Shown here piece by piece: positions 1 through 15,642 of a stretch of DNA of 30,565 nt. The notes under the pieces are model-generated. The model was not told the DNA's origin and ran no database searches. It saw only the letters and a program-made list of their open reading frames with translations. Where the stretch lies: the IMG/VR virus record IMGVR_UViG_3300028392_000215, positions 1 to 30,565 of that record, one strand, 5' to 3'. Made by a program: the position numbers and the translations under genes. How positions within the stretch are numbered: the first letter of the stretch is position 1; every line of letters begins with the position of its first letter. The stretch comes from a virus.

Positions 1-504
1 AAGATACAGTATATTATCCAAATATTGTTGCTTTTGTTTGGGCAAGCTTTCGGCATGATAGCTCACTGTAAATTCATCAACTAAAGGAATTACTTCTGCC
101 CATCTGTTGGCTCCAACTACTGCATTGGTGGTACAAGTAATTGTTAGATGCCAACTGTCCTGATACTGTTCGTATTTGTTGTGGCATTCTTTAAGTATCT
201 CAACAATGTCTGGATGGAATAAACTTTCACCTCCATACACATTCAGTATAACTTTGCGTTGGGTTGGCTTCTTATACTTCATGTATTCGTTGACATACTG
301 GTACATAAAGTCAATGGACTGTAAACATTCTTCCAGTGGCGGGTGTTCAGTATTGTTGTCATGTCCTGCATGTAGACCCCACTCGGGTATAGTGCCACAA
401 TATTTACAATCCAAGTTGCACCGTTTGGTCACTTCCCAATCTAGCAAAAATGCCGGCACATTGGCCGGATCCAGAGCAAAACCAATTGAGTTAACGGTAT
501 TCAT
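1..504 (-). CDS. Radical SAM enzyme, N-terminal part (runs off window edge)
   Basis: The window holds the first 168 codons; the 3' part lies beyond base 1. The start is the ATG at 502-504 (MNTVNSIG...). The radical SAM cluster is visible as Cys29, Cys33 and Cys36 (CNLDCKYC), followed by the SAM-contacting GGES motif at residues 91-94. Such enzymes bind a 4Fe-4S cluster and cleave S-adenosylmethionine to a 5'-deoxyadenosyl radical. Unlike the two other radical SAM proteins in this cassette it has no cysteine-rich domain before the cluster; one could follow it outside the window. Its start overlaps the end of the upstream radical SAM gene by 14 nt, so the two are probably translated together. 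The substrate is unknown. Family call is firm, function is not. Confidence 0.88.
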   Translation of the reverse strand, partial: MNTVNSIGFALDPANVPAFLLDWEVTKRCNLDCKYCGTIPEWGLHAGHDNNTEHPPLEECLQSIDFMYQYVNEYMKYKKPTQRKVILNVYGGESLFHPDIVEILKECHNKYEQYQDSWHLTITCTTNAVVGANRWAEVIPLVDEFTVSYHAESLPKQKQQYLDNILYL

Positions 505-1624
505 ACAACTCCGCAAATATTTTACTGCTGTCTAAATTTCTCCTAGCATCCAAATTGGCAATTTGTTCAAATGAGTTGGATAAATTTTTATTGAAAGATT
601 TGTCTAAATAACTCAGCATATTTTTATAACTGTCTTCTAGCAAGTATCCTGGTTTATTTGCAAGTTTTGTTGTCAATATAGTTTTTACTTCATCAATGGC
701 ACTATCGGGCAAATGGCGTATATTCAAGTATTCTGGACCTAACAACGGTCCAATGATGAAACTGTTGTTGTGAAAACCTTGTGCTTGAAGAAAAGCTACG
801 CAATCAAACACTGATCGATAATTCAACAAGAAATGTAGCATGTTGAAACTTATTTTATGCGTCAGCTGTTTGATAATTTTTAAATTGTCAAGAAAATCAC
901 ACCATTTTCCGCCATAACGTATGTATTCATATTCTTGCTCTATCGTTTCTAAACTCACTATCCATTGCACATTTTTAAATTCACATATGCGTTCAAATAT
1001 CCTTGTGTCCACTTTGTTCAAATTGGTATTGACACGCAAGTTAACCGATGGATCCAGTAGTTCTAATAGTTCTAAATTTTCCTTCATTAGCAATGGTTCG
1101 CCGCCGGCCATGTAAACATGTTTGAGTTTTCGTGCATTATTGAATATGTATTCTTTAAAATCTGTTGACTGTTTTTGTGTTGGCACATCCAGTTTTACTT
1201 TTAACTCACTGGCCCACTTGCTGCTAAACTCTGGTCTACAGTAGACACAGGCTTGATTGCATAAATTGGACCAACGAACATCAACAGTCTGCAAATCAAA
1301 GTTGCCAACTTGATACGTGTCAGTTGGCACTGTTTTTAATTCACGTATGTAAAAAACTCTATCACTGATGTGATCAAATCCCTTTTTGCCCTGTTCTATA
1401 TCATAACAGGTATGACAAGTTGGTACAGGTTTATGATTTACAATATTCTGTTGTCTAATACCATTGTTGTCAATCAATATTGATTCAATTGAGTTGTCTT
1501 TGATGTTGCCCAGTTTATCGGCACTGCGTATACAGTTTTTAACAACACCGTCAAGGTTATACATTAATCCGGTCCAGGGCATTGGACAAAAATATGGATT
1601 GGTCAGCATGTCCTTGGGTGTCAT
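491..1624 (-). CDS. Radical SAM protein with N-terminal twitch/SPASM-like domain
   Basis: 377 aa. Residues 1-75 carry a SPASM/twitch-like cysteine pattern: Cys13 followed by PMPW, Cys31 after a DGVVKN turn, an LGNI segment, then Cys70 and Cys73 (CHTC). This looks like an auxiliary iron-sulfur site. The radical SAM core follows, with Cys122, Cys126, Cys129 (CNQACVYC) and GGEP at 174-177. In most SPASM enzymes the auxiliary domain is C-terminal; here it is in front, as in the class that databases call N-terminal twitch radical SAM proteins. The gene overlaps the upstream SDR gene by 4 nt (ATGA) and the downstream radical SAM gene by 14 nt, so it is inside a tight operon. Auxiliary-cluster radical SAM enzymes often modify peptides or sugars, but the substrate here is not known. 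Confidence 0.88.
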   Translation of the reverse strand: MTPKDMLTNPYFCPMPWTGLMYNLDGVVKNCIRSADKLGNIKDNSIESILIDNNGIRQQNIVNHKPVPTCHTCYDIEQGKKGFDHISDRVFYIRELKTVPTDTYQVGNFDLQTVDVRWSNLCNQACVYCRPEFSSKWASELKVKLDVPTQKQSTDFKEYIFNNARKLKHVYMAGGEPLLMKENLELLELLDPSVNLRVNTNLNKVDTRIFERICEFKNVQWIVSLETIEQEYEYIRYGGKWCDFLDNLKIIKQLTHKISFNMLHFLLNYRSVFDCVAFLQAQGFHNNSFIIGPLLGPEYLNIRHLPDSAIDEVKTILTTKLANKPGYLLEDSYKNMLSYLDKSFNKNLSNSFEQIANLDARRNLDSSKIFAELYEYR

Positions 1625-2166
1625 TGATTTGCTGGCCCCAAGCTGATGTCCGGAATAGTTAAATTGTTTGATCGAGCCATGTCCAACATATGCACCAATA
1701 TGCTGGCCCAGACATTGACATCAGCTGCAGGTGGCACTGTTTTATCAGGACTTGTGGCTATATTACCAGGTCGAACCAGAGTCAAGTTGATTCCCATTCG
1801 GCGATAGCGTAATTGCTTTACCGCTTCCTCTAGTGCAATTTTTTGTACACGATACGCATCCATATCAAGCCCGGGCAATGTGCTCACTGGACTTTGCGTC
1901 ATTATTGTGCTTATGACTATGATGTGCTTACCGGTATTTTCCCAACGTCGAGCCATTTCAAATAACAATTCCGTTTGAGCATATCCTATTTGAGCATTGT
2001 TAACAAAAACATCGCATGGCTCAATTAACTCTGCAATTTTTGGGATTACTCTTATATTGTGCCCTTTGCGACGACTAAGTCGCAAAACTTCATGCCCTCG
2101 ACTTTCATATTCGTTGCCCAATGCCTGTCCTATTCCGGCAGTACCACCTGTGATTGCTATTTTCAT
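1621..2166 (-). CDS. Short-chain dehydrogenase/reductase (SDR), short form
   Basis: 181 aa, shorter than the usual ~250 aa of SDRs. The nucleotide-binding TGGTAGIG glycine motif is at residues 6-13, an NNAQ variant of the structural NNAG motif at 56-59, the catalytic Ser at 86, the Tyr-x3-Lys pair at Tyr105/Lys109, and RPGNIAT at 132-138. All core catalytic residues are therefore present; the substrate-binding C-terminal part is reduced. It should perform an NAD(P)-dependent oxidation or reduction of a hydroxyl or carbonyl group in the cytoplasm. It overlaps both neighbours by 4 nt (ATGA junctions), which ties it to the radical SAM genes and suggests that it acts on the same substrate or on its precursor. 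Confidence 0.88.
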   Translation of the reverse strand: MKIAITGGTAGIGQALGNEYESRGHEVLRLSRRKGHNIRVIPKIAELIEPCDVFVNNAQIGYAQTELLFEMARRWENTGKHIIVISTIMTQSPVSTLPGLDMDAYRVQKIALEEAVKQLRYRRMGINLTLVRPGNIATSPDKTVPPAADVNVWASILVHMLDMARSNNLTIPDISLGPANQ

Positions 2167-2774
2167 AATAGGTGCGTGGGCTCTTTGAAAAACATACCTT
2201 GTAATCCGATTCTAGGAAACACAGGGTCTTGGTAAAATCCAATGTCATGAGCCACTTGCCCATTCATAAATATGGGTTGATTTTTTGCGAAGTCGTGTCT
2301 ACACACCTCGTTGAAGTCTCTGTATTCAAGTTGATAAACATCTCGATCCTTGCTGTTAGCGTCACCTTTGCGTGTCACCAGTGTGCTCACGTCAACTGTG
2401 GGATCTTTAGGTTCATAGAATCTAACTGATGTTCTGTCCATATTCATTATGGGCCAATTCAGTTTCCAATATACAGGCGGCTTGTCTAAATGTATGGGAC
2501 AGCTGGACTCAGGATAGTCAGGAATGGATATGGTCCATGCTAAAGTAAAGTATGCGTCACGTAGTACCAGTCCTTGTAGTCGTAACCAATCCAGCAACTT
2601 GAGATTTTTACTAACAAAGTGTTTCATATCCTTGCCAAAGCGGTCGGGAAAATTGGCATATTGATATTCTTCAGACTTGGTCAACAGTGTGGTATATGAC
2701 GTTACATAATCTTTGAGATCTTGATTGATTTCTTGGTAGTTGGGACAATCCGGCACAAGATAGTATTGATTCAT
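2163..2774 (-). CDS. Putative Fe(II)/2-oxoglutarate-type oxygenase
   Basis: 203 aa, no certain family match by eye. A possible 2-His-1-carboxylate facial triad is visible: His95 and Asp97 (IHLD), then His176 (VAHDIG) and a downstream Arg188 (PRIGLQ) at the place where 2-oxoglutarate is usually bound. The region between them is rich in aromatic residues and short beta-like segments (WKLNWPI, VRFYEP), as in a double-stranded beta-helix. If this is right it hydroxylates or desaturates a substrate using O2. It overlaps both the SDR gene and the upstream radical SAM gene by 4 nt. The call rests on motif spacing alone; it could be another beta-barrel enzyme such as an aspartyl hydroxylase-like protein. 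Confidence 0.5.
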   Translation of the reverse strand: MNQYYLVPDCPNYQEINQDLKDYVTSYTTLLTKSEEYQYANFPDRFGKDMKHFVSKNLKLLDWLRLQGLVLRDAYFTLAWTISIPDYPESSCPIHLDKPPVYWKLNWPIMNMDRTSVRFYEPKDPTVDVSTLVTRKGDANSKDRDVYQLEYRDFNEVCRHDFAKNQPIFMNGQVAHDIGFYQDPVFPRIGLQGMFFKEPTHLL

Positions 2775-3655
2775 AGCAACCCTCTCAATTGTTTTTGTTC
2801 TTGTATATATCTATTAATTGAGTCTTGGTCTTTGTTCTCTACTGCTAGTACTGTGGGAGTTTTCAAATACGCATACTCATGATCAATTTCGTGTTGTTTG
2901 GCAAATGCTATTATTTCAGATAACTGATGTTGATTTAACACACTGACTGTGGTCCACAAATTTAATCGTACGGGCATGGTACGGTATATCATTAAGTTTT
3001 TATAAAACTCATCCCATTTGATAGGCCAACGCACAAAGTCATGCACTTCGCCTATACCATCAAAACTGACTGTGACTGTGACATCTATTCCACGTTCCGC
3101 TAGTGGTAACAATTCAGTTAACACAGTACTACAGTTGGTATTGAGTCTGACACTTTGAATACTGGCGGGCAAGTTTGCCAATATGTGTCGATATTTTTTA
3201 CTGTAACTGGGTTCCCCGCCATTTATATCCAAGTGCACCACACGATCCAATGGCAACTGCCAAAAGCGATCACTGTTATCCACTATGGGAAATTGTCGAG
3301 ATCGTAGGCTACCAATCTTGGTGCTTAGATTCTCATTGCAAGTCATGCAGGCACTGTTGCATACATTGTCCAGCACACCACCTACTATCAAATAATCCTG
3401 TTGTGTTTGTTCTGCGTCGAATTTAATACTGTGTGTTCGTATACTGGTTCCGTTGATGCTTTCAGTTTGTTTGCAACGCTGACATTCTTTGGGCCATATG
3501 CCCTTGTGCATATATAACTTGACATTGCGAAGCCAAAGACTTGACTCCAATTCATCAAGGGAGTTGAACTCAGGGGCCGCAATCATATGCCCACATCTAC
3601 TTACAGTGCCAGTAGGATTAAAGCGAACAAAATGGTCTAGTCTAGGGCAGTGCAT
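2771..3655 (-). CDS. Radical SAM protein with N-terminal twitch-like domain (second)
   Basis: 294 aa. The N-terminus again has a cysteine-rich auxiliary pattern before the core: Cys3 (HCPRLDH), Cys21 (TVSRCGHM), then Cys58 and Cys61 (CQRC). The radical SAM cluster is Cys99, Cys103, Cys106 (CNSACMTC), and the GGEP motif is at 146-149. The domain order matches the 377-aa protein at 491-1624, but sequence identity is low, so this is a paralogue with a probably different role rather than a recent duplicate. Its end overlaps the oxygenase-like gene by 4 nt and its start overlaps the sulfotransferase-like gene by 19 nt. Substrate unknown. Confidence 0.86.
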   Translation of the reverse strand: MHCPRLDHFVRFNPTGTVSRCGHMIAAPEFNSLDELESSLWLRNVKLYMHKGIWPKECQRCKQTESINGTSIRTHSIKFDAEQTQQDYLIVGGVLDNVCNSACMTCNENLSTKIGSLRSRQFPIVDNSDRFWQLPLDRVVHLDINGGEPSYSKKYRHILANLPASIQSVRLNTNCSTVLTELLPLAERGIDVTVTVSFDGIGEVHDFVRWPIKWDEFYKNLMIYRTMPVRLNLWTTVSVLNQHQLSEIIAFAKQHEIDHEYAYLKTPTVLAVENKDQDSINRYIQEQKQLRGLL

Positions 3656-4248
3656 ATTTCTCTACTGCGTTGAATAATTTCTTCGTACAAGTATTGATGT
3701 TTTGTTTTAATATATCTTCCAATAGCTCTAAATGCCAAAGTCTGTCCCATAAGTTCTTCATAAAGAATTTTATCCAGTTGTAGATAGTAAGACAATTTAC
3801 TATTTTGACTGAAACGATCTATTAGCATTTGATCACGAGTCAATGCATTCCAAACTTCGTGTGTCACACTGGATAATTCATTTATATGCCTGAAGTTTAC
3901 GTGGGCATCTGTCATTCTAGACAAGTTTACAACCCAGTGAAATTGTAGATTAAAATGACTATTTAAAAATAAAAATTCACTAATAAATTTTAATGCGGTT
4001 TCTCTATCTAGGTCAGGATGGTATCTTAGATATGTTTGAACTCCACTGACATAACGCTCAAATGGATCACGAAGATAGATGTCAATTTTGTCTAATTTTT
4101 TTATTTCAAAATAGTTTAATTCTCTTATAGCAATCTTGCCAATGGTACTGCTGGCATTTTTGTATATGGGATAGACGTATTGATTTTCGGTAAGTTCATA
4201 TACCTTCAGCTGGTCTGGAAACAGGATGGGATCAATATATGAAAACAT
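3637..4248 (-). CDS. Sulfotransferase-like protein
   Basis: 203 aa from the ATG at 4248. A longer reading from a TTG at 4287 would translate through a perfect hairpin, so the ATG is preferred. Residues 27-38 (YPIYKNASSTIGK region) resemble the 5'-phosphosulfate loop of PAPS-dependent sulfotransferases, and RDPFERYVSG at 60-69 resembles the 3'-phosphate-binding loop (Arg60, Ser68). These two motifs are the hallmarks of the Sulfotransfer_2 type family, whose members sulfate glycans or other hydroxyl groups. Length is typical of compact bacterial and phage versions. It is the first gene of the minus-strand cassette that also holds three radical SAM enzymes, and overlaps the next by 19 nt. No free Shine-Dalgarno is visible before the ATG. 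Confidence 0.68.
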   Translation of the reverse strand: MFSYIDPILFPDQLKVYELTENQYVYPIYKNASSTIGKIAIRELNYFEIKKLDKIDIYLRDPFERYVSGVQTYLRYHPDLDRETALKFISEFLFLNSHFNLQFHWVVNLSRMTDAHVNFRHINELSSVTHEVWNALTRDQMLIDRFSQNSKLSYYLQLDKILYEELMGQTLAFRAIGRYIKTKHQYLYEEIIQRSREICTALD

Positions 4249-4257
4249 AATCAAGGA

Positions 4258-4280
4258 GGCAGGGGACCGTAACCCCTGCC
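4258..4280 (-). terminator. Strong hairpin after gp32, just before the sulfotransferase start
   Basis: Perfect 8-bp inverted repeat (GGCAGGGG / CCCCTGCC) with a 7-nt loop, between the gp32 stop and the ATG at 4248. On the minus strand it is followed by TCCTTGATT rather than a clean U-run, so it may be an inefficient terminator, an RNA-stabilising 3' end for gp32 mRNA, or an attenuator for the cassette. Confidence 0.6.
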
Positions 4281-4298
4281 GACACAAGCATCTACTGT

Positions 4299-5312
4299 TT
4301 AAGTAGTTTTACGGTTTCTAATCATTGCCAAAATGTCTTCGGCACGTTGGCTGCTGGGTTTAGCTTCTGCTACAACCGGTGCAGTTGGGGTAGGAGTTTC
4401 ATCTACATCAAATGGGGGTTCTTCATCGACTGTTGCTTTGTTAACAACGCTGAGTGCTGGCTTGGCCTGTGCAACTGGGGTTGCTGCTGGCAATGCATCT
4501 GCATCAACACCTGCTCCACCTTGGAAGCCACTTGGCTTGTAGTAGTTGCTCCAACGATCTGGATCGTATGGTTGTCCATCTACGCTGGCCTCAAACATTT
4601 CTTTAAGAACTTTGAGTTCGACTTCGCCCGGACGCTTGGGCAAAAAGTCTTGCAAGTTATACAAACCAAATTTTTCAACAGCTTCTGCTTCTTCGGCAGT
4701 CAGTGCAGTTTCTTTACGTGCCCATGTTGATGTATTGTAGTCTGCATATCCGCCTTTGCTGGTCTTTTTGATGTTGAAATCAAGTCCACCTGCATAGTCA
4801 GTTGGCAAGTTTTCCATGTCTGGATCCATCAATGCATTCTTGATCAAGTTAAAGATCTGTGGGCTAATAATAAATCTACGAATTGGGTTCTCTGGTGTTT
4901 TGTCGTCACCCGATGGATTATCACGAACAAAACCTTGGAACAAGTAACTGCGTTTTTTCCAGTACTTGCGACCCATTTCTTCTAAGTTGGGGTCTTTGAA
5001 CCAAGGGCGAACTTCTGCAAGAATTGGACATGCCTCACCCCACATTTCAACGCAAGGTACTTGCACAACAACAGGCTTACTGTCTGCTTGGCCTTTGACG
5101 CCAGCAAATGGAAGTTTAATCATTGCACGTTCAACCCAAAAGAATGAGTTCTTAGTGTCTGCGTCGGGAAGGAATCTTACGCGAGCTGTTGTATTTTCTG
5201 GAATGTTCCAGTGTGCGTAAATGGCGTTGTCGCCTTGAGATTTACCACCGCTTTGGCCGCGGTTTTCGTTTGCTTGAAGCTTTGCTCTAATTTCTGCTAA
5301 TGTCATTGCCAT
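4299..5312 (-). CDS. 32: gp32-like single-stranded DNA-binding protein
   Basis: 337 aa. It coats single-stranded DNA in phage replication, recombination and repair. The T4 gp32 layout is visible: a basic N-terminal segment (LAEIRAKLQ...), an OB-fold core with IYAHWNIPE / ARVRFLPD and aromatic-rich strands to about residue 240 (DRWSNYYKPSG), a Pro/Ala linker, and an acidic stretch (DEEPPFDVDE) of the type that recruits replication proteins in T4. Of the T4 zinc ligands only a Cys pair (Cys87, Cys95) is evident, so zinc binding is uncertain. The ATG at 5312 has AAAGGA at 5321-5326, 8 nt upstream; a second ATG at 5306 is possible. A late-type box and a predicted pseudoknot in the leader suggest autogenous control. 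Confidence 0.9.
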   Translation of the reverse strand: MAMTLAEIRAKLQANENRGQSGGKSQGDNAIYAHWNIPENTTARVRFLPDADTKNSFFWVERAMIKLPFAGVKGQADSKPVVVQVPCVEMWGEACPILAEVRPWFKDPNLEEMGRKYWKKRSYLFQGFVRDNPSGDDKTPENPIRRFIISPQIFNLIKNALMDPDMENLPTDYAGGLDFNIKKTSKGGYADYNTSTWARKETALTAEEAEAVEKFGLYNLQDFLPKRPGEVELKVLKEMFEASVDGQPYDPDRWSNYYKPSGFQGGAGVDADALPAATPVAQAKPALSVVNKATVDEEPPFDVDETPTPTAPVVAEAKPSSQRAEDILAMIRNRKTT

Positions 5313-5350
5313 GATGTATTTCCTTTATAAATTAAGATGGTCTTTAAAAT

Positions 5351-5385
5351 GTGCCTAAATGTATACAGCACTCCCGCAGTATACA
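5351..5385 (-). promoter_or_regulatory. Predicted hairpin/pseudoknot in the gp32 leader (autogenous operator)
   Basis: On the minus strand TGTATAC (5379-5385) pairs with GTATACA (5360-5366). The last 5 nt of its loop, GTGCT (5367-5371), can pair with GGCAC (5351-5355) after a 4-nt TTTA link, giving an H-type pseudoknot. It sits at the predicted 5' end of the mRNA and is followed by an AU-rich stretch of about 38 nt up to the ATG. T4 gp32 represses its own mRNA through a pseudoknot placed in the same way. Pairing was done by eye; the 4-nt link is tight unless the outer two pairs of stem 1 open. Confidence 0.55.
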
Positions 5386-5389
5386 CTAT

Positions 5390-5398
5390 TATTTATGC
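5390..5398 (-). promoter_or_regulatory. T4-type late promoter box for gp32
   Basis: GCATAAATA on the minus strand, one base from the T4 late consensus TATAAATA. It lies about 78 nt before the gp32 ATG and immediately upstream of the predicted leader pseudoknot, which would therefore be at the 5' end of the transcript. Confidence 0.6.
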
Positions 5399-5409
5399 TT
5401 GTCAAAGAA

Positions 5410-5433
5410 AAAGGCACAAAATTATGTGCCTTT
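5410..5433 (-). terminator. Rho-independent terminator after the 499-aa gene
   Basis: Stem AAAGGCACA / TGTGCCTTT (9 bp) with a 6-nt loop; on the minus strand it is followed by TTTTTCTTT. It closes the 499-aa gene transcript just before the gp32 promoter box. Confidence 0.85.
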
Positions 5434-5458
5434 GAGTAAATTGATTGTTTATGGTATA

Positions 5459-6958
5459 TTAACGTTTCAACCCAGCCAGCCTGCGTAAGAAACCCATGTC
5501 ATCAGACTCGTTTACATTGGGTTCATCCATGCCAGTTGCACCATACTGATCAGTTGGGTTGGCTTGTTGTGGGCTCACTGGTGTTGCATAATTGGTTTGT
5601 GCATCATCTTGATCGTCTTTGCCAAATTCCACATCATCTAGCACTTCGGGCATGTGCGTATTCAACCAAACTTTGATGATTGCTCGTACATCAGCATCTG
5701 GACCTTGTCCACCAACACCTGCATAGTCCGCTATGGTATCTGTTAATTCATCTATGTGATATGTGGGCAATAATCTTTTTAGTTGTGATATGGCGTCAAT
5801 ACCATTGATGCCTGCTCGAACCGGTGCCCGCAACAACTTGTTCAGTGCTTGAATCTTATCATCGCTAGGCAACTCCTCTTCCATCACATAGTTGGCCCAC
5901 TCATCTAGTTCCATGACAACTTGTCCGGCCGCTTCCATCTTCTGACGTTGGTATTCTCTGAACACAATGGGCAATGCATCTTCAAATCGGTCATCATAGA
6001 CCTTTTTAACAAATCTCTCACGCAATGCTGCCACGTCAATTTCTTCTTCAACAGGAGTAGGCGGTGTATAGTTACACGCAAACTCATTATATTGTTTTGG
6101 ACTACGTAATCTCTTCAGTGTGTTTTTTAAACGCTCATAGTGTTTGACTGCGGCCTGAGTCATCTCTGCTGTTTCTTGATCTTCAAACTCGCGTAGTCGG
6201 GTACCACGAACAAAATGTTTCATGGCATTCATTTCTGTGACCATGTCATCAATTGCTTCTGCAATGCCATCGTACACTGTGCCACCTTGGTTCAAGTGTT
6301 CAGCCATGGCATATGCCGCGTGTAGATTAGTGTGGCTCAACAAGAAACGCTCACCACGATCTGTTTCCAAGAAGATTTCTTCAATCTTTCTAGTACGTGC
6401 TCCACGCACCTCATCATTGATTCGGTCTCTGTGGCGTACCAGTATTCGGGTTTTGCCTGCTTCGGCCACACTGTTGTAGGGACGACCTGGTGTACCGTAC
6501 AATCTGCTTTCAGTGATTTTAATCTCGTCAACATTGTATACATCATCTGTGCGGGCTTGCTGTTTGATATCTCTGACATCAAGATTGCTCTTGGTAATAT
6601 CTCTGGTGTCAAACTTTAACAAATTTCTACGTGCAAATTGGCGTAGGTTCCGTAAAAACTGATACCATTCTTTACGCTGGCTTTCATCCATGTTTCTAGT
6701 GATGTTTTGACTAAAGTAAATTTTCAAACTTTCTTCATCAATCAAGCTAACTGTGATTTTACCAAAAGGAATTGGATCAGCTACGTCAGAATCTGCATCA
6801 TTGGCCACTGCATTGCTGGAGTAGGTAAAGTTAAAAAATCGTGCTGTTTCAGGATTATCTGTGGCTTTGGCTTTTTCGTCGCCCAGGGTCACAGGAGCAA
6901 ATCGTGAACGGATTTTATCAAATAATGCAGCGGATATGGATTCAATTTCTTTAGACAT
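5459..6958 (-). CDS. Conserved phage protein of unknown function (499 aa)
   Basis: I do not recognise a catalytic family. The protein is charged and mostly helical by appearance, with many Asp/Glu/Arg residues, several DxRDI segments around residues 115-135 and an acidic C-terminal third (repeated DD/ED pairs). The last residues contain RRLAGL, a short motif that also occurs in the 1060-aa protein and in the 130-aa protein of this window, which suggests a shared partner. Its position between gp17 and gp32 and similar genes I recall from marine T4-like phages make it a conserved phage gene. The ATG at 6958 is preceded by the late box CATAAATA with only 5 nt between and no Shine-Dalgarno. A strong terminator follows the stop. 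Confidence 0.75.
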   Translation of the reverse strand: MSKEIESISAALFDKIRSRFAPVTLGDEKAKATDNPETARFFNFTYSSNAVANDADSDVADPIPFGKITVSLIDEESLKIYFSQNITRNMDESQRKEWYQFLRNLRQFARRNLLKFDTRDITKSNLDVRDIKQQARTDDVYNVDEIKITESRLYGTPGRPYNSVAEAGKTRILVRHRDRINDEVRGARTRKIEEIFLETDRGERFLLSHTNLHAAYAMAEHLNQGGTVYDGIAEAIDDMVTEMNAMKHFVRGTRLREFEDQETAEMTQAAVKHYERLKNTLKRLRSPKQYNEFACNYTPPTPVEEEIDVAALRERFVKKVYDDRFEDALPIVFREYQRQKMEAAGQVVMELDEWANYVMEEELPSDDKIQALNKLLRAPVRAGINGIDAISQLKRLLPTYHIDELTDTIADYAGVGGQGPDADVRAIIKVWLNTHMPEVLDDVEFGKDDQDDAQTNYATPVSPQQANPTDQYGATGMDEPNVNESDDMGFLRRLAGLKR

Positions 6959-6963
6959 AGTAA

Positions 6964-6971
6964 TATTTATG
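6964..6971 (-). promoter_or_regulatory. Late promoter box, 5 nt from ATG
   Basis: CATAAATA, beginning 2 nt after the gp17 stop and ending 5 nt before the ATG of the 499-aa gene. In T4 transcription starts a few bases after the box, so the mRNA would be leaderless or nearly so. Confidence 0.6.
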
Positions 6972-6973
6972 TG

Positions 6974-8536
6974 TTATATCAGTATAAAGGGCATAGGTTC
7001 AATGAAGTTATCGATGCTGTCACGTAGTTCTGCATCCATGCTTGCATCAAAGTTTTGCAATAACTGTATCATTCTAATGGCCAATATCATGGCCATGACC
7101 AAATCATCATGCTCTCCTATTTTTGCAGAATAACTTGATCCTCTGGCCACAAAGGACTTGAGCTCACTGATCAATGGTTTACTGGCAATGGCTATGCGTT
7201 TTGTTTCAACTAGACTTTTTAATTTTGAACATGCTGACAATTTATTTTTGTGACCAGTTGTAAAGCCTTTGCGGTATCTAGTGCCCGCTGCTCCTTTTTT
7301 AGGGTCACTTAAAAATATTCCAGGTATATTTTCTTCACCAATCTCGGATATCGCAACCAGTGCTGCTTCACCCAGTGTGTTGTTTTCAACACTGTAGTAC
7401 ACGCTGTTGATGCCCACTGTGTCAGACAAATATTGACATATTTCCTTCATGATGATGACTTGTCGTTGCACAATGGTTTTGTTATCACACCATTCTGCCA
7501 CTTGTTTCAGTCCCGGCAATTCAAGTACTTGTATGGCTGCAGGATCACTGCCCGTGCCCAGACTGGGGTCAAGGGCAACCACATAGGTGCAATCCTTCTG
7601 TGGCTTCTTATACCAACGTATTTGACCTTGACGTTCAATTGGATCAAGGCCTGCCATTTCAACCAAATGCAAGGGATTGATCAGTGTTTCATCAAATATA
7701 ATGAATTCACATTCCATTTCGCGTCTAAAACGTTCTTCGCCCAGTTGTGATAACATTTGATCTGCCCATGCCTGATCTCTATCAGGATGTTCCTGCCATG
7801 CACTACGGAATGCTCTAAATCCATTTTTGCCCAGAACAGTTTCATTGCCATTTTCATCAAAACAGTTGGTGGCACTTTTCCAAATCTGTGCAAATTGATC
7901 TTCGTCGCTGTTGGGTGTACTTGTGATAATACATTTACCACCAGTTGCCAGTGTAGGTGTAATGGATGTCCAAAACTCTGACGCAATAGTGGGTCGAACA
8001 AAAGCAAACTCATCACAATACAATAATGATATTGACATACCACGACCTGTATTTTCTGTTGTTGTCTGACTTACTATGCGACTTCCATTTTCAAAATCCA
8101 AACTGCCTTTGTTGTAACTTGTGACACCTGCACGTACAAAATTTGGACAGTTCTCGTAGGCATATCGAATGCGTTGCATGATCTCTTGAGCCCCCAGATA
8201 CTTGTGAGCTGCCACAAGAATTGTGCTGTCAGGAACAAACATGGCATACCACAACAAATATCCTGCGGCACTTGTTGACTTGCCAGTTTGCCTTGGCATC
8301 ATAGCTATGGCATATCTATTGCTATGATAAGTTTCAATTAGTCTTTTTTGATATTCAAAAGGATGATATTGTATGGCACCTTTTGTTGGGTGCTGAATAT
8401 AAAAATAATTGTCCATAAAGTATTCTGGCCCAGTTGTTGGGTCAGCACATCGTGCAATCTCTAGAATCTGCTGCTCTGTATAAGTTGCACGTTGATACGG
8501 CGTTTTTATAATGGCTGTTTCTAGTTCTTTACTCAT
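6974..8536 (-). CDS. 17: Terminase large subunit (gp17)
   Basis: 520 aa. It is the ATP-driven motor and nuclease that packages DNA into proheads. The ATPase domain has Walker A PRQTGKST at 81-88, Walker B LLYCDE at 171-176 and the coupling motif TSTPN at 206-210. The RNase H-like nuclease domain has Asp323 (ALDPS), Glu384 (SVENN) and the Asp477/Asp478 pair (EHDDLVMA), the usual acidic metal-binding set. Length is slightly under T4 gp17 (610 aa). In T4 the small subunit gene lies directly beside it; here gp16 is about 6.6 kb away. A late-like box GTTAAATA (8562-8569) lies 25 nt before the ATG at 8536. Confidence 0.96.
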   Translation of the reverse strand: MSKELETAIIKTPYQRATYTEQQILEIARCADPTTGPEYFMDNYFYIQHPTKGAIQYHPFEYQKRLIETYHSNRYAIAMMPRQTGKSTSAAGYLLWYAMFVPDSTILVAAHKYLGAQEIMQRIRYAYENCPNFVRAGVTSYNKGSLDFENGSRIVSQTTTENTGRGMSISLLYCDEFAFVRPTIASEFWTSITPTLATGGKCIITSTPNSDEDQFAQIWKSATNCFDENGNETVLGKNGFRAFRSAWQEHPDRDQAWADQMLSQLGEERFRREMECEFIIFDETLINPLHLVEMAGLDPIERQGQIRWYKKPQKDCTYVVALDPSLGTGSDPAAIQVLELPGLKQVAEWCDNKTIVQRQVIIMKEICQYLSDTVGINSVYYSVENNTLGEAALVAISEIGEENIPGIFLSDPKKGAAGTRYRKGFTTGHKNKLSACSKLKSLVETKRIAIASKPLISELKSFVARGSSYSAKIGEHDDLVMAMILAIRMIQLLQNFDASMDAELRDSIDNFIEPMPFILI

Positions 8537-8561
8537 TGCTATTCATCATATAATATAAGTA

Positions 8562-8569
8562 TATTTAAC
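8562..8569 (-). promoter_or_regulatory. Late-like promoter box for gp17
   Basis: GTTAAATA on the minus strand, 25 nt from the gp17 ATG, in the AT-rich divergent gap between gp17 and the HNH gene. The first position deviates from the other boxes. A TATAAT on the plus strand (8549-8554) could serve the HNH gene, but no good -35 is visible. Confidence 0.35.
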
Positions 8570-8592
8570 ACTTATTTTAAAAGTATTCGAAA

Positions 8593-9171
8593 ATGTCAAA
8601 CACCTTATTGTTAAATTCCAATTACGAACCAATTTCTGTTTTGCCACTTAGTGTTATCAATTGGCAACATTCTATAAAATTATATTTCTTGGATAGGGTC
8701 ACTATTTTAGAATCCTACGACAATTGGGTCATACACAGTGAACATTTGAGTATTAGTGTTCCCAGTGTATGTGTCACCAAAGAATATTTTAATTATAAAA
8801 AGGCAGTAAAGTTTAGTAGAGCCAACATGTATCTACGTGACTTGTACACTTGCCAATACTGTGATGAAACATTTCCCAGCAAGGAATTGACCATTGACCA
8901 TGTTGTGCCCAGGATGGCTGGTGGCATGACCAACTTTGAAAACTGCACAACCAGTTGCAAACCCTGCAATCATCGTAAAGGCAGCAAGTTGAGAAAGCCC
9001 ATACGTATGCCCTACAAGCCAGACTATTATAGTCTAGTTAACAAATGGCGTAATAGGAAAATTCATGTACCGCACGAATCTTGGTACAAATATTTGGGCA
9101 TCACTCCCCCGGATTCGGGCGTTGGCGATACTGAGGGTTCTTACTTAGGTACTTTTCGATTTGATCTTTGA
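8593..9171 (+). CDS. HNH endonuclease
   Basis: 192 aa. Residues 3-40 match the start seen in a widespread HNH family (LLLNSNYEPISVLPL...). The nuclease part is at about 85-130: zinc-binding Cys87 and Cys90 (CQYC), catalytic Asp102-His103, Asn117, a second Cys pair Cys122/Cys125 and His127 (CNHRKGSK). The HNH motif is intact, so it should cut DNA as a nickase or double-strand nuclease. It is the only plus-strand gene between two long minus-strand blocks and sits beside gp17; HNH genes next to terminases assist packaging in some cos phages, while in T4-like phages free-standing HNH genes are often homing endonucleases. Its last 71 nt overlap head-on the end of the next gene, hinting at a recent insertion or an extended C-terminus. 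Confidence 0.88.
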   Translation: MSNTLLLNSNYEPISVLPLSVINWQHSIKLYFLDRVTILESYDNWVIHSEHLSISVPSVCVTKEYFNYKKAVKFSRANMYLRDLYTCQYCDETFPSKELTIDHVVPRMAGGMTNFENCTTSCKPCNHRKGSKLRKPIRMPYKPDYYSLVNKWRNRKIHVPHESWYKYLGITPPDSGVGDTEGSYLGTFRFDL

Positions 9172-9493
9172 GACTGCCGTTTAAGTAGGGTTTGGTAAAA
9201 TTGATAAGGAACCAAAGATCAGTTCCAGGTTGAGCGTGATACTCACGTTCCAGATCTCTACGCTCTTTGGCAGTGTAGCTGATGTTGCTACCAAGTGGAC
9301 TTTCGATGCCTGTTTCTGTGGCCTGTGGTGCACCAGACAAATTGCCGCCCACTGTCATTGCACCGCCAGGCACGGGGCTGGTTTCAGTGAGTCCTGCCAA
9401 TTTGCGTAATTGATTTAGATCTGCAGCATCCATCACTGCATCAGGTTCGCTCTGCTGAGCAAAGTTTGCCGCAGTAATTTTATACTGTTTCAT
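9101..9493 (-). CDS. Small protein with LRKLAGL motif, possible head or packaging accessory
   Basis: 130 aa, not recognised as a known family. The N-terminal third contains LNQLRKLAGL at about residues 26-35, the same short motif that ends the 499-aa protein and recurs in the 1060-aa protein. A Gly/Pro/Ser-rich linker (about residues 38-68) leads to a charged helical segment (TAKERRDLEREY) and a conserved-looking C-terminal part. The start ATG overlaps the stop of the upstream 139-aa gene by 4 nt, so both are co-translated. The 3' 71 nt overlap the convergent HNH gene. Function unknown; co-expression with late genes suggests a virion or assembly role. Confidence 0.68.
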   Translation of the reverse strand: MKQYKITAANFAQQSEPDAVMDAADLNQLRKLAGLTETSPVPGGAMTVGGNLSGAPQATETGIESPLGSNISYTAKERRDLEREYHAQPGTDLWFLINFTKPYLNGSLKDQIEKYLSKNPQYRQRPNPGE

Positions 9494-9909
9494 TTTTTCT
9501 TTGAGGCAATCTCAACACCTTTGCGTTTCAACACAATGGGGCCAGGATTGCGATGTGGACTGTGTTTGTGTGTCTCATGATGTTCTTCGCTTTTACCGTG
9601 TGGTACCAATTGATCTGATTCTGCACCGATTGTTTTCAATGCACCCTGTATCATATTGTGTTCTTCCCTGGTATAAGGATGGGCTGTATTGTATTTTTCA
9701 ACCCAACTGGCTGGATCCATTACTTCTTTGGACAATGCTTGGTCTGTTTTACCATCATGACATGCAGTGGCCATCCACACGCGATTCAAGTGATTGGTAC
9801 GATCGTATCCGCCTTTGTCACGGAATCTTACGATACCAGTGCTGTTTGCTGCTGCACCGTCTGGCAAATCTCCCTTGCGATCTTCACTGATGATATCTTT
9901 TATTTTCAT
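9490..9909 (-). CDS. Small unknown protein with capsid-targeting-like N-terminus
   Basis: 139 aa, no recognised family. The first nine residues, MKIKDIISE, end in an I-x-E site. T4 internal head proteins begin with a short targeting peptide that the prohead protease gp21 removes after (L/I)-x-E, so this could be a packaged internal protein; the resemblance is short. The rest is hydrophilic, with a His-rich patch (HGKSEEHHETHKH) near residues 103-115 and a basic end (KRKGVEIASKKK). The ATG at 9909 follows a late box CATAAATA by 5 nt with no Shine-Dalgarno. It overlaps the downstream 130-aa gene by 4 nt. Confidence 0.65.
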   Translation of the reverse strand: MKIKDIISEDRKGDLPDGAAANSTGIVRFRDKGGYDRTNHLNRVWMATACHDGKTDQALSKEVMDPASWVEKYNTAHPYTREEHNMIQGALKTIGAESDQLVPHGKSEEHHETHKHSPHRNPGPIVLKRKGVEIASKKK

Positions 9910-9914
9910 ACAGT

Positions 9915-9922
9915 TATTTATG
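9915..9922 (-). promoter_or_regulatory. Late promoter box, 5 nt from ATG
   Basis: CATAAATA followed by ACTGT and the ATG of the 139-aa gene. The same ATAAATA-ACTGT-ATG string occurs before the gene starting at 17847. Confidence 0.6.
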
Positions 9923-9926
9923 CGTT

Positions 9927-10000
9927 TGGAGCAGTCGGGCAGGCTTCGAACCTTCTTCTCAGCGGGGGTGCTGTGTTTTACCCGGTTAAACTACGACTGC
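9927..10000 (-). tRNA. Decayed or unusual tRNA-Gly-like gene
   Basis: On the minus strand a 7-bp acceptor stem GCAGTCG / CGACTGC is perfect and is followed by T and an encoded CCA, matching the U73 discriminator of tRNA-Gly. The D arm GTTT...AAAC with GG in the loop is normal, and the T loop TTCGAAG is normal. The anticodon arm is not: only four pairs (CAGC/GCTG) close a 6-nt loop ACCCCC that lacks U33. The T stem has one A-G mismatch and an extra C before the acceptor. Compared with ordinary tRNA-Gly, one base seems lost from the anticodon stem and one from the loop. Its 5' end overlaps the SGNH gene stop by 10 nt. Could be a pseudogene, a tRNA-like processing signal or a sequencing error. 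Confidence 0.5.
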
Positions 10001-11271
10001 AGGCTTTGAAATAAACTGGGTTGACCAGTTATTTTCTTGTAAAAATAGTTGGCCATAGCAGTATGTGTTGCAGGACCAAACGATTCATATACTCCGTATT
10101 GTGTTGCATCATATGGCACAGTGGGATCATCTTTGTTGCATATTAAATCAAAATAGGCAATACCGTACTTGCTACACACGCTAGATAATAGTATTTGATT
10201 TTTATAATAATTGTAATTGTTACTTTGCCAGTCAATGTGTTTCCACCAATCATCATATGGCAAATGATAATTCCTGTGTGTATGAACTCCACATTTGAAT
10301 TTTTTACTCACAAACTCTCTGAGAGCAGGTGGCGGCCAATGTACACATACTGCAACTATACTAGACTGTAATGCTTCGATTGCCCTGACGCCGACCCGAG
10401 TCATGCCATCACTACTGATTCCACGAATTCCAAAATTTAAAACTTGTGCTTCTAATTTGTTTTGCAGTTGACTAGGCCAAATGACATCCAATGGATTAAA
10501 TGCCCCAAACACATCACTGTCTCCCAGACACAAGATGATTTTTTGTTTTTTGAGATCTTCCAACACATAATCAAAATTTGATCGATAGCCCAAATTGTTA
10601 AATTTGTATTCAATTTTTTTATCGGTATCGTACTGTGACATGTTGACCAAATCAGAAGACAGTGCCCTGGGTGAAATATCATTAGCAGCAGGCAAGCTGG
10701 GAGAAAAGAATAAATTTTTATATCTATCTTTACCTAAATAATATTCAATATTTTCATCAGCTGATAGTGTGGGTTTTGTTGCTTCTCTTATGTTGTAGGT
10801 CAACGTGTCTTTGTATTCAATTTTATCCTTTAAAAAATCTGCAATATCGTCCACTGTGTCGGCCAGTTTTCTTAACCTTAAAATACATACAGCACGTTCA
10901 CTGTGTTTTAATGGCAAATTGTACCACATGTGATTGGTATCAAATTCGGCATTGATAATTTTTTGAGACATCGGACGTAGATCAAACTTGTATGTATTAT
11001 TGAGCAAGACGGGATGAAAAAATAGTACGGGTGTGCTCTTGTTTGATTTTACAGCTATTTCAAATTCAAATTGCTTTAAAAATATTTGATCAGTTGAAAT
11101 ATCTACCGATATCGAATCCATCGGAGTTTGAGTATCCCACGTCAATGTTTTCAATGATACTGTTTTTGTTGCAGAACTATTGAGATGCTTGGAAGTTATA
11201 GATATTGATGCAACAATATCTTGATCGGCGATATCCGAAACTGCACAGAAAGGAAATGAATAGGTTAACAT
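9991..11271 (-). CDS. SGNH/GDSL-type hydrolase with beta-rich N-terminal domain
   Basis: 426 aa. The C-terminal half has the block I motif GDSDVFG (Gly250-Asp251-Ser252, nucleophile Ser252), a block II-like NFGIRGISSDG (280-289) and a C-terminal His403 in GPATH. The Asp normally three residues before that His is not present, so the catalytic triad is incomplete or uses another acid. SGNH enzymes remove acyl groups from lipids or glycans; in phages they are often in tail spikes or modify surface sugars. The first ~170 residues are rich in short beta strands (SISITSKH, FEFEIAVKS) and look like a separate binding domain. The gene has its own late-like box and follows a strong terminator. The stop overlaps the tRNA-like element. 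Confidence 0.72.
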   Translation of the reverse strand: MLTYSFPFCAVSDIADQDIVASISITSKHLNSSATKTVSLKTLTWDTQTPMDSISVDISTDQIFLKQFEFEIAVKSNKSTPVLFFHPVLLNNTYKFDLRPMSQKIINAEFDTNHMWYNLPLKHSERAVCILRLRKLADTVDDIADFLKDKIEYKDTLTYNIREATKPTLSADENIEYYLGKDRYKNLFFSPSLPAANDISPRALSSDLVNMSQYDTDKKIEYKFNNLGYRSNFDYVLEDLKKQKIILCLGDSDVFGAFNPLDVIWPSQLQNKLEAQVLNFGIRGISSDGMTRVGVRAIEALQSSIVAVCVHWPPPALREFVSKKFKCGVHTHRNYHLPYDDWWKHIDWQSNNYNYYKNQILLSSVCSKYGIAYFDLICNKDDPTVPYDATQYGVYESFGPATHTAMANYFYKKITGQPSLFQSLQS

Positions 11272-11279
11272 GGCAATGT

Positions 11280-11287
11280 TATTTACA
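11280..11287 (-). promoter_or_regulatory. Late promoter box for the SGNH hydrolase gene
   Basis: TGTAAATA, 8 nt before the ATG at 11271 and just downstream of the terminator at 11309-11332. No Shine-Dalgarno is visible in the short gap. Confidence 0.45.
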
Positions 11288-11308
11288 GACAGTTGGTGCA
11301 GTCAATAA

Positions 11309-11332
11309 AAAAGGGCACCTAAATGCCCTTTT
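11309..11332 (-). terminator. Rho-independent terminator after the 1060-aa gene
   Basis: Stem AAAAGGGCA / TGCCCTTTT (9 bp) with a 6-nt loop; on the minus strand followed by further T residues (TTATT). It lies directly after the stop of the 1060-aa gene. Confidence 0.88.
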
Positions 11333-11334
11333 GT

Positions 11335-14300
11335 TTATAGTTGCTTTTTGATACTTTCGTATTCAGCAGCAAGTTCTTCTGCTAAATCCAACACTGGCTG
11401 TGCCGGACGGTCGGGTCGTTGTGTCATTGGGTTGTCACCCAATCCACCGTACATGTTTTTCTCGCCAAAGTCGCCTTCGCCTGGACGCATGGTACTGGCC
11501 TTCATTGAGTAGTAATCTTCAACTGGATTGTTGGCAAGATCTTCGTCAACTTCCATTTCTGGTTCCATAATGCTCAATTCAACACCGGGCTCGCACATTT
11601 CATCACCTTCACCGTCTAGGTCAAGCGATTGTAATTCTTGTGCTTTGTCTGTGCCACCAAGTCCGGCAATTTTCAACATCTGTAACAGTTCGGAAGCTTG
11701 TTCACCAGTTGCATTGATAGTAACATCTTTGTGTCCGTTGGTATTGATGTTGGTAGAAATATTGATGTTGCTTTCTTGATCAACTGGAGCACCATAGTCG
11801 GCGTTTTCTTCTAAGTTGCTGGTGTCACGATACTTGCGACCATCAATTTCAAATTCGCCACCCTTGGGTGTGGCTTTCAATAGACTAGTAAACTTATTGA
11901 ACCCTTCTGTACAACCACATTGGCTTTCGTACATGCCACACTCCATGCATTTTTCGCAACTGCATTTGCTTTCGTACATGCCACACTCCATGCAAACTTC
12001 TTCGGACTCATCAACTTTCAATCCTGCCAAACGTGCTAATTCGTTTAGTGCAGAGTCTTCTTTGTACATTTTGTCTTTGAGATTTTGCAAATGACCTGCA
12101 TCATCTGGTCCTGTCAGTGCATCAATGCCTTTTTTGGCAATATCCATTGCACGACTTACTGCACCAGGTGCAGGTCCCTGTGTACGACTTGGTTCAAATG
12201 GGCTTACATTTTTTTCTGGCATACCATGTTGTGGTGCAAAGCTGGGACCTTTTGGTACTGCTTCGCCCATCAGCTTTTTGCCATGGTTGTGTATTTTCAA
12301 AAATGCTTCCAACTTGTCACTGCAATGACCAGTTTGCTTGAATGCGTTGATGTCTTTTTGCAACTCATTCAACATTTCAGACACGGTGCCATCAGTCTCT
12401 TTCATCATTTCGGCAAAGTTGATGCCTTCGGCAATTTGAAGTTTACGACTTTCATTTTTAACATTGTCGTACTTGTTGGTTGGCTTGTCTAGTTTGTTAA
12501 CTGGACCAGGCTTGTTAGAGGGATAGTATGCACTCTTGGCCTTGTTCTTTGTGCCAGGAATAGTTGGTTTGGCAACTCTTGGATCAACGTTGGCAAAAGG
12601 ATCGTTGCCTTCTGGTAGTTTGTGCTTTGGTCCTGCAATTTTATACCTGTCACCGTACCGATCTTTTTCTTTGTACTCTTTGCCATACTTGCTAGCCAAT
12701 GGAGCTTGGCCCAGTTTAGCACGACGTGCCAGCTCATCTGGTCTGCCGCTGTCTTTGGCACCCTTGGTATCGTAGTAAAACATTTCATCAACTTCTTCTG
12801 GGCTGTTGTCCCACTCGTGTTTTTGACGATGTGTGACTCGTCCAATGTCTTTGTTGCCAGGCTTCTTACCAATCAAACCAGCAATACCTTTGGTGTTGAA
12901 TTTGGTATCTACTGGATCAGGTTGCACCTTTGGTAGGCTACCGGTTGCACCAGTATAATTTCCTTGGTTACCGTATTTGCCTTTGTGTACTACATCACCT
13001 TCTTTGACTTTTTTCTTGTTTTTGTATGCAAGAGATTCTCTATCTCTGAGAGCTCCGAGTTCTTTTTGGGTGCCTCCATTACGCATCAATTCTGCAGCAT
13101 CTCTCATGTATTTTTCACCATGTTTTTTTCTGCCTATAGATGCCATCAATCCACTTTCGTTCATATCGTCCGACTGTTTGGTCTTGGCTTTTTCAGCAGC
13201 TTGTTGTTGTGCTTTGGCCTGTGTAGGCGTGGGAGTTCGGTGACTATAGTTGTCAGGATTCATTGCTCCGGCACCTAGTCCCACCATTGCGGCTGCAGCA
13301 ACGCCCTTCTTGACCTTGTCGGCAATTGGACCTTCGTCTAGTACTTCTATTTCACCAAACTTGGCTTCCCAACTGGCAATAAAATCTTCACCCACATCAC
13401 AACTGACATAGTCGTTACTCTGCATACCCTGTTCGCTATAATCAACATCTGCACCAGCTAGACCGTGCTTATCTAAGAAATCTTGTAGCTGTCCCATAAA
13501 TGTTTGATCACCATAAATTAATCCATCTTTACGTATATCCCAAGAACTTTTATTGAACTTTACTATCAGCTCGCCAAAGTCTTTGCCTGAATCAAGAACA
13601 TCTAGTTTTATATCTGTAATAGCCACTTTTTTGTCCTGATCGGTATATAAATATACTCCAGGTGTTGCACGTCTATTGTTCTCACTCAAAGCACCCTTGA
13701 TGTCGCCACGGGCCAACTTGCCCAATGGCTCGCCAATCACTTTCTTGGCATGTTGGAATGCTGTTTTTGGCTCTGCAGCTTTTTGTGCATTCTTGGCCAT
13801 CACAGCCTTGGTACGATTTTGTACACCCAACTCACGTGTCTTGCCAATCATGTCTAACTCGACTGGATGTGGCTTTTCACCTTCCGCCACACCTTGTTGC
13901 ATATCACGCTTGACTGCACGGGCAACATCTTGTGCCAGGGCACCTGGGTTACTGTCTCCACCGTAGTTCAATACATCAATGATAGCGGCGTGAACTGTGC
14001 GTTCGTCTGCCCGGCGTGCCAGATTAGGATATATTCTTTCAAACTCTGCATATACTTCATCAGCAAGTTCTTCGCTATCAGCACCTTCCGCCATCTCATC
14101 ATCATAATTATCATCACTACCCATAGGTTCTTTATTGTCCTTACCATAATAGTCATCAGGCATAGGAGGATGTTCATAGCCACCTTCCGCCACACCTTGT
14201 TCGCCTAGTTTCTTGCCCTTGGCGGCAGCATTTTGAAATTTCTTCTTTCCATACTTTTTACGACCAATGCTGGCAGCTAGGGCCTCAGGATTGTCGATTC

Positions 14301-14517
14301 CGCCTTGTTTCTTCAAAGCACTTACTGTTTTGTCAAATCCCATGTACTTTTCTGTCAGTCGGGCTTCAACAGCACTGACGCCTTCTAGCACTGAGCCTCG
14401 AGCTTCAACACTTTCATAGATCTGTTTTACAACAGCATCATGCTTTTGTTGTTCTGTGGGCTGTAGTGCAGCCAGTTTACCAAGAATGGTATATAGATTG
14501 TCGTCGTGGTGGCTCAT
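11335..14517 (-). CDS. Large repeat-rich mosaic protein (1060 aa), unknown function
   Basis: Not assignable to a known family. It looks built of linkers and short modules: LGKLAAL at 12-18; two ASIGRKK(Y/H)G modules at 82-103 and 459-480; two GVAEG segments at 109-113 and 209-213 encoded by a 21-bp perfect DNA repeat; a Gly/Ala hydrophobic stretch at 405-419 that could insert in a membrane or core; low-complexity charged regions around 500-690; LARLAGL at 827-833; a doubled Cys block at 842-869 (CMEC...CSC, CMEC...CGC) that may bind zinc; LKIAGL at 948-953; and an acidic C-terminus. Candidate roles are prohead core, internal head protein or tail component. The ATG overlaps the upstream stop by 1 nt (TAATG) with AAAGGAAA before it. 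I cannot exclude a fusion of several former genes. Confidence 0.75.
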   Translation of the reverse strand: MSHHDDNLYTILGKLAALQPTEQQKHDAVVKQIYESVEARGSVLEGVSAVEARLTEKYMGFDKTVSALKKQGGIDNPEALAASIGRKKYGKKKFQNAAAKGKKLGEQGVAEGGYEHPPMPDDYYGKDNKEPMGSDDNYDDEMAEGADSEELADEVYAEFERIYPNLARRADERTVHAAIIDVLNYGGDSNPGALAQDVARAVKRDMQQGVAEGEKPHPVELDMIGKTRELGVQNRTKAVMAKNAQKAAEPKTAFQHAKKVIGEPLGKLARGDIKGALSENNRRATPGVYLYTDQDKKVAITDIKLDVLDSGKDFGELIVKFNKSSWDIRKDGLIYGDQTFMGQLQDFLDKHGLAGADVDYSEQGMQSNDYVSCDVGEDFIASWEAKFGEIEVLDEGPIADKVKKGVAAAAMVGLGAGAMNPDNYSHRTPTPTQAKAQQQAAEKAKTKQSDDMNESGLMASIGRKKHGEKYMRDAAELMRNGGTQKELGALRDRESLAYKNKKKVKEGDVVHKGKYGNQGNYTGATGSLPKVQPDPVDTKFNTKGIAGLIGKKPGNKDIGRVTHRQKHEWDNSPEEVDEMFYYDTKGAKDSGRPDELARRAKLGQAPLASKYGKEYKEKDRYGDRYKIAGPKHKLPEGNDPFANVDPRVAKPTIPGTKNKAKSAYYPSNKPGPVNKLDKPTNKYDNVKNESRKLQIAEGINFAEMMKETDGTVSEMLNELQKDINAFKQTGHCSDKLEAFLKIHNHGKKLMGEAVPKGPSFAPQHGMPEKNVSPFEPSRTQGPAPGAVSRAMDIAKKGIDALTGPDDAGHLQNLKDKMYKEDSALNELARLAGLKVDESEEVCMECGMYESKCSCEKCMECGMYESQCGCTEGFNKFTSLLKATPKGGEFEIDGRKYRDTSNLEENADYGAPVDQESNINISTNINTNGHKDVTINATGEQASELLQMLKIAGLGGTDKAQELQSLDLDGEGDEMCEPGVELSIMEPEMEVDEDLANNPVEDYYSMKASTMRPGEGDFGEKNMYGGLGDNPMTQRPDRPAQPVLDLAEELAAEYESIKKQL
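11923..11994 (-). repeat. Tandem duplication encoding a Cys-rich block
   Basis: A 27-nt perfect repeat at 11923-11949 and 11968-11994 with period 45 nt. It encodes two 15-residue copies with CMECGMYES in common, each holding four cysteines (C-x2-C...C-x-C). Near identity at DNA level means a recent duplication. Confidence 0.9.
13878..13898 (-). repeat. GVAEG-coding direct repeat, copy 2
   Basis: 21 nt identical to 14181-14201, encoding QGVAEG in the 1060-aa protein. The shared block covers the same codons in frame, and the flanks differ. Confidence 0.85.
14181..14201 (-). repeat. GVAEG-coding direct repeat, copy 1
   Basis: 21 nt identical to 13878-13898. A third, partial match of 12 nt (14082-14093) encodes the MAEG part at residues 142-145. 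Confidence 0.85.
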
Positions 14518-15104: not shown

Positions 15105-15124
15105 CAATATAATCCTCTGTTAGA

Positions 15125-15132
15125 TATTTAGT
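15125..15132 (-). promoter_or_regulatory. Late promoter box for the 195-aa gene
   Basis: ACTAAATA, 20 nt before the ATG at 15104, with the Shine-Dalgarno AGAGGA between. This is the conventional arrangement, unlike the leaderless-type sites. Confidence 0.55.
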
Positions 15133-15141
15133 GTAAAATAA

Positions 15142-15630: not shown

Positions 15631-15634
15631 ACCT

Positions 15635-15642
15635 TATTTATT
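15635..15642 (-). promoter_or_regulatory. Late promoter box, 4 nt from ATG of gp16
   Basis: AATAAATA followed by AGGT and the ATG of the gp16-like gene. It overlaps the stop codon of the upstream gp4-like gene. Confidence 0.55.

Follow-up and report, generated by a model that had tools for sequence, protein, structure and literature searches.

A conserved cassette of radical SAM, oxygenase-like, and sulfotransferase-like genes at the gp32-uvsX site of uncultured aquatic phages

Many uncultured environmental phages of a T4-superfamily group carry a conserved, movable cassette of enzyme genes made up of two blocks. The core block combines genes for a sulfotransferase-like protein (ST) and a radical SAM protein (rS1), and the second block combines those for a short-chain dehydrogenase/reductase (SDR) and a twitch-domain radical SAM protein (rS2); added to these blocks are an Fe(II)/2-oxoglutarate oxygenase-like protein (OX), radical SAM proteins that include a third one (rS3), and a protein of the SGNH-like type. 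That the cassette is one functional unit is well supported, and its enzyme chemistry suggests the tailoring of one scaffold.

The cassette was analyzed starting from the 30,565-base IMG/VR virus record IMGVR_UViG_3300028392_000215 (the window). On its minus strand, in the order of transcription, a virion structural gene is followed by the gene for a gp32-type single-strand DNA-binding protein (SSB; positions 4299..5312; phrog_1192, E = 3e-69), which forms the upstream border of the insertion site, and then by ST (4248-3637), rS1 (3655-2771), OX (2774-2163), SDR (2166-1621), rS2 (1624-491), and the start of rS3 (504-1), which is open at the window edge. Neighboring genes overlap by 19 (ST/rS1), 4 (rS1/OX), 4 (OX/SDR), 4 (SDR/rS2), and 14 nt (rS2/rS3); the last overlap extends to 26 nt if an upstream TTG is taken as the start of rS3. 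The six-gene cassette that the original prediction had placed at positions 1-4248 is therefore present there as six overlapping minus-strand open reading frames, whereas the description of the virus as a T4-like phage holds only broadly, as its terminase is closest to those of the jumbo phages Paride/PA5oct (54%) and its SSB to that of Sinorhizobium phage Phosso (50%). Elsewhere in the window, the structural region encodes a 1060-aa protein (11335-14517) with a repeated Cys-rich motif (MECGMYESKCSCEKCMECGMYESQCGC), and an SGNH-like GDSD motif is seen in a protein of 426 aa (9991-11271) whose gene lies two positions upstream of that for the terminase.

Scans of viral contigs recovered 84 relatives of rS2 and, in independent runs, the best 80 of 171 relatives of OX and the best 80 of at least 494 relatives of rS1, so that distant forms are under-sampled. 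Removal of near-identical copies left 127 loci, 97 of them with both gp32 and uvsX; as these loci were recruited by cassette genes, the counts describe the make-up of the cassette and not its prevalence among phages. The ST-rS1 pair is found in 96 of the 97 non-redundant loci with a complete gp32-to-uvsX interval (one interval has a 169-aa gene in the place of ST) and stands alone in two. The ST-rS1-SDR-rS2 arrangement is found in 41 of these intervals and ST-rS1-OX-SDR-rS2 in 32, and the minor variants include extra radical SAM genes, rS3, or SGNH. Overlaps of 4 nt are seen in 49 of 52 OX/SDR junctions and in 54 of 58 rS1/SDR junctions. The recurrence of gene order and overlaps in 97 non-redundant loci argues that the arrangement is not due to chance. 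It also answers the question, raised with the original prediction, of whether the same families co-occur in other phages: they stand together in these intervals and are not scattered. A constant partner that would name the substrate was not found, although an SGNH-like protein does recur.

Evolutionary distances point to the same two blocks. Those of SDR and rS2 correlate beyond what the flanking genes account for (partial r = 0.48, null 95% 0.15), those of ST and rS1 correlate weakly (partial r = 0.20, null 0.06), and in the other gene pairs the correlation is absent or barely present, with a Spearman coefficient of about 0 for rS1 versus rS2. These values agree with what is seen at eight loci from the OX scan, where the cassette families lie away from gp32 and uvsX. 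Four of them have both pairs (L108, L121, L124, and L128), and here transcription passes through SDR-rS2 before ST-rS1: each block is kept, and the two have exchanged positions. At the rearranged loci, OX is found beside the blocks together with an extra radical SAM gene (rS4), most loci carry an SGNH-like gene that converges on rS1, and several of the eight are close to genes that, by inspection, resemble those of the gp41 helicase and gp61 primase. Co-occurrence, coupling overlaps, the block exchange at the second site, and absence from cultured phages together back the claim of one undescribed system. Phage-encoded Gram-negative porins (PF13609) were also noticed near the rearranged cassette (L121, 7832-8764; L108, 3343-4401).

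In the cultured phages Phosso, Atu_ph07, and RaK2, the SSB gene adjoins the RecA/UvsX gene with gaps of about 75-80 bases and without the cassette, which identifies the cassette as an insertion; in Paride, the SSB gene and uvsX are likewise adjacent and cassette-free, and uvsX itself appears interrupted. On the minus strand of the window, a sigma-70-like promoter candidate (TTGACA-16-TATACT, 11/12; 5378..5405) precedes gp32, and a terminator-like hairpin (5410..5433) appears to close the upstream structural gene, each as a consensus match only. A promoter match of at least 10/12 lies upstream of gp32 in 43 of 64 loci and upstream of ST in none of 115. With a median gap between gp32 and ST of 3.5 nt (128 loci), this makes co-transcription with gp32 likely, and the gp32 promoter, as far as can be judged from such matches, likely serves both gp32 and the cassette. 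At the other end, L013 and L036 have rS3 at full length, and the window copy (the first 168 of about 370 aa) is 82% and 77% identical to these, respectively; in L036, rS3 is directly followed by uvsX, and by analogy uvsX presumably follows rS3 beyond base 1 of the window.

The enzyme families named in the original prediction, i.e., three radical SAM enzymes, an SDR, a putative Fe(II) oxygenase, and a sulfotransferase-like protein, are each supported by motifs, profiles, folds, or relatives, the last one as a probable assignment. The CxxxCxxC motif and radical SAM matches are found in rS1, rS2, and rS3. The 377-aa rS2 protein (CNQACVYC) scores above the cut-offs of PF04055 (46 bits), PF13186, and, over its full length, NF033640 (N_Twi_rSAM; 226 bits against a curated cut-off of 170), whose name gives no reaction or substrate. 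The truncated rS3 passes PF04055 (33 bits) and stays below the NF033640 cut-off (35 bits). The 294-aa rS1 protein (CNSACMTC) matches radical SAM PHROGs and is below the cut-offs of both NF033640 (130 bits) and PF04055 (20.7 bits; cut-off, 29.5); it is a divergent relative of the NF033640 family, and rS1 and rS2 are related to each other (hhalign 99%). In addition to the radical SAM motif, both rS1 and rS2 have four conserved N-terminal cysteines, in a twitch-like region in rS1 and at C13, C31, C70, and C73 in rS2, and C3, C21, C58, C61, C99, C103, and C106 of rS1 are invariant. Cellular relatives of rS2 come from Bdellovibrionota and other metagenome-assembled genomes, and none found exceeds 27% identity, so no close cellular orthologue was detected; one Bdellovibrionia genome (L168) has a weaker SDR gene beside a twitch radical SAM gene. 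An A-type Fe-S carrier is encoded in one of three partial phage genomes.

The 203-aa ST protein is probably a sulfotransferase, as judged by conserved motifs and relatives rather than by a Pfam score of its own or a solved fold. It contains KNASST (5'-PSB-like) and RDPFERYVSG (3'-PB-like) motifs, whose Lys/Ser and Arg/Ser residues we take to be PAPS-binding. Among 51 relatives, K30, N31, S34, R60, R65, and S68 are invariant or nearly so, with K30, S34, R60, and S68 invariant or conserved in at least 90%. In the Pfam scan the window protein has no match, including to PF03567, whereas 7 of the 51 relatives match that family (E up to 0.1, best 0.0024), and comparison with phage sulfotransferase models in BFVD gave E values of 4e-25 and 6e-4. 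Its predicted model (pLDDT 90.9) has no significant PDB fold match, with sulfotransferases among the weak ones, and PDB profile searches with ST, OX, and the SGNH-like proteins returned nothing useful. ST is the most variable cassette member (median distance 0.64, versus 0.31 for gp32 and 0.20 for uvsX). APS kinase was absent from three partial phage genomes, so PAPS would need to be supplied by the host. A 2023 paper describes the role of phage sulfotransferases as unclear (PMC10580990).

The OX protein (203 aa) also lacks a Pfam match of its own, but its AlphaFold2 model (pLDDT 92.4) finds nearly exclusively Fe(II)/2-oxoglutarate oxygenases among the top PDB fold matches (probability up to 1.00), consistent with a double-stranded beta-helix that carries the H95xD97/H176 triad and distal R188 as conserved residues. 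Five distinct OX relatives (in L033, L042, L153, and L225) have HxG instead of HxD, a change seen in some Fe/2OG halogenases that may instead mean lost activity. OX paralogues adjoin a conserved AAA ATPase gene at L104, L105, L107, L109-L112, L114, L119, L130, and L131, mostly without the cassette, and OX therefore also exists outside it. The SDR protein passes PF00106 (29.1 bits; cut-off, 26.6) and has the complete classical motifs, a TGxxxGxG-type glycine motif (GGTAGIG) and Y105xxxK109, along with a subfamily signature, QTELL; at 181 aa it is shorter than usual SDRs.

No cassette enzyme has a characterized close relative, so specificity has to be read from context. Of the roles first suggested (modification of a glycan, a peptide, or a nucleotide), context favors the glycan, and our leading, if still tentative, reading is that the cassette tailors a saccharide, most likely a host envelope glycan or a phage glycoconjugate. 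Favoring this are the PF03567-like (carbohydrate-type) signal of ST relatives, the location of OX and a radical SAM gene next to those for a DegT aminotransferase, an NAD epimerase, and a cytidylyltransferase in one genome (G001), the cytidylyltransferase-cupin and GT8 genes found just beyond uvsY, and the porins at L121 and L108. Literature precedents point the same way. The radical SAM dehydratase AprD4 and the NADPH-dependent reductase AprD3 act on an aminoglycoside (PMC5461906), and in pelagimyophages radical SAM cassettes are placed in a host recognition cluster that also holds LPS glycosyltransferases (PMC7029224). Another enzyme of aminoglycoside biosynthesis, HygY, is, by the title of a reference cited in PMC10991966, a twitch epimerase. 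The likeness of SDR-rS2 to AprD4/AprD3, a radical SAM enzyme paired with a reductase to edit a sugar carbon, is an analogy of logic only, and the cassette differs from AprD4/AprD3, HygY, and BtrN, itself a twitch radical SAM enzyme of aminoglycoside biosynthesis, in that its four-Cys domain is N-terminal (NF033640 type). Against a saccharide stand the glycosyltransferases, which are near the cassette and not inside it, the canonical site, which lies among replication genes and not envelope genes, and, for ST, the lack of a significant solved-structure match and the need for host PAPS.

For the expression, substrate, order of steps, and purpose of the cassette we infer the following. Inserted between gp32 and uvsX, it would be read through from the gp32 promoter. 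SDR-rS2 would act as a radical SAM/reductase pair on a sugar or glycan intermediate, oxidizing, epimerizing, or deoxygenating one of its carbons; rS1 would add a second radical step and OX a hydroxylation or desaturation, and ST would form a sulfate ester on the product, with host PAPS as the donor. Most likely, the outcome would be a change in a host envelope glycan, for example one that limits how well progeny or competing phages re-adsorb, or in a glycoconjugate of the phage. A bolder version, which we consider rather unlikely in its full form, is that of a dedicated, transferable phage pathway with two exchangeable modules (ST plus a twitch radical SAM protein, and SDR plus a twitch radical SAM protein). 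It would build a saccharide that is sulfated, edited by radical chemistry, and not known from cells, and would thereby rewrite the infected cell's surface. A glycan product would represent a phage-specific envelope edit.

Peptides are also among the substrates of twitch/SPASM-type radical SAM proteins, and 2-oxoglutarate oxygenases include enzymes that modify proteins or nucleic acids. The strongest competing explanation, itself unlikely, is that the cassette modifies a virion or host protein or a peptide encoded elsewhere, with radical steps on side chains or the backbone, OX as the hydroxylase, and ST as the sulfating enzyme. Peptide-modifying radical SAM enzymes are suggested by the twitch-like domains with four N-terminal Cys and by SkfB (E = 3e-5), the top PDB sequence match of rS2, and the fold neighbors of OX include prolyl hydroxylases as well as oxygenases of small molecules. 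However, the SkfB match is confined to the shared radical SAM core, and the cassette, whose genes overlap, contains no conserved small open reading frame, so that no dedicated precursor peptide lies next to its radical SAM genes. An 84-aa acidic open reading frame after uvsX was considered as such a precursor and rejected as a core gene that is also present in the cassette-free Phosso and Atu_ph07.

Less likely still is the synthesis of a small molecule or cofactor-like metabolite, such as a sulfated cyclitol or lipid, with a supportive or defensive role in the infected cell. The enzyme mix resembles that of natural-product tailoring, with SnoN and KanJ among the fold neighbors of OX, and the radical SAM clusters of Campylobacter phages have been proposed to boost host metabolism (PMC2853527). 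These fold neighbors are not specific, though, and the cassette lacks a scaffold-building enzyme, all its members being of the tailoring kind.

Modification of phage DNA, a nucleotide, or tRNA would account for the gp32-uvsX location, and other phages have 2-oxoglutarate oxygenases whose targets are bases; both known sites of the cassette adjoin replication genes, at the second site as judged by inspection. Nevertheless, this explanation is improbable: PF00303 (ThyA-type hydroxymethylase) was unmatched in six partial phage genomes, the Pfam scan found no DNA-binding domain, and the relatives with an intact, cassette-free gp32-uvsX junction indicate that the site does not depend on what the cassette does. 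Finally, unrelated accessory genes that have in common only an insertion site, one that is permissive and highly expressed, would fit the variable presence of OX, rS3, and SGNH and the independence of rS1 and rS2 distances. They are very improbable, largely refuted by the reunion of five families, with both blocks intact, at a second genomic site; the conserved coupling overlaps also speak against them.

Phages rich in radical SAM genes are already known, and we regard this cassette as a novel form of such gene sets. None of rS1, rS2, rS3, OX, and ST had a match in 50,697 phage records, and no description of the gene set, the two blocks, or the gp32-uvsX site was found in about 5.4 million open papers (subscription papers were largely outside this coverage). 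Reports of such phages go back to 2010 (PMC2853527), with enzymes that, in the available part of that literature, have no demonstrated function. Because the unit is compact, has a clean empty site, and consists of a minimal core (ST-rS1) and a second module (SDR-rS2), its function is testable. The accessible parts of the accounts of marine T4-like environmental genomes and pelagimyophages describe Fe-S genes and up to 12 radical SAM genes (PMC5332604, PMC7029224) and, compared by description, do not mention this gene set, its blocks, or its site. The Campylobacter phages CP220/CPt10, distant relatives of T4, each carry 11-12 radical SAM genes, five of which form, with an amidinotransferase gene, a block that is interchangeable; no ST-rS1-OX-SDR-rS2 unit is described there (PMC2853527). 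The likeness extends to the number of radical SAM genes, of which our three longest records have 9-14 each, and to a weak amidinotransferase homologue (24%) in the radical SAM run of L158. This run (1-16001) and those of L159 and L160, which include GT8-like, amidinotransferase-like, carbamoyltransferase, and SGNH-like genes, make up another cluster of these phages, larger than the cassette.
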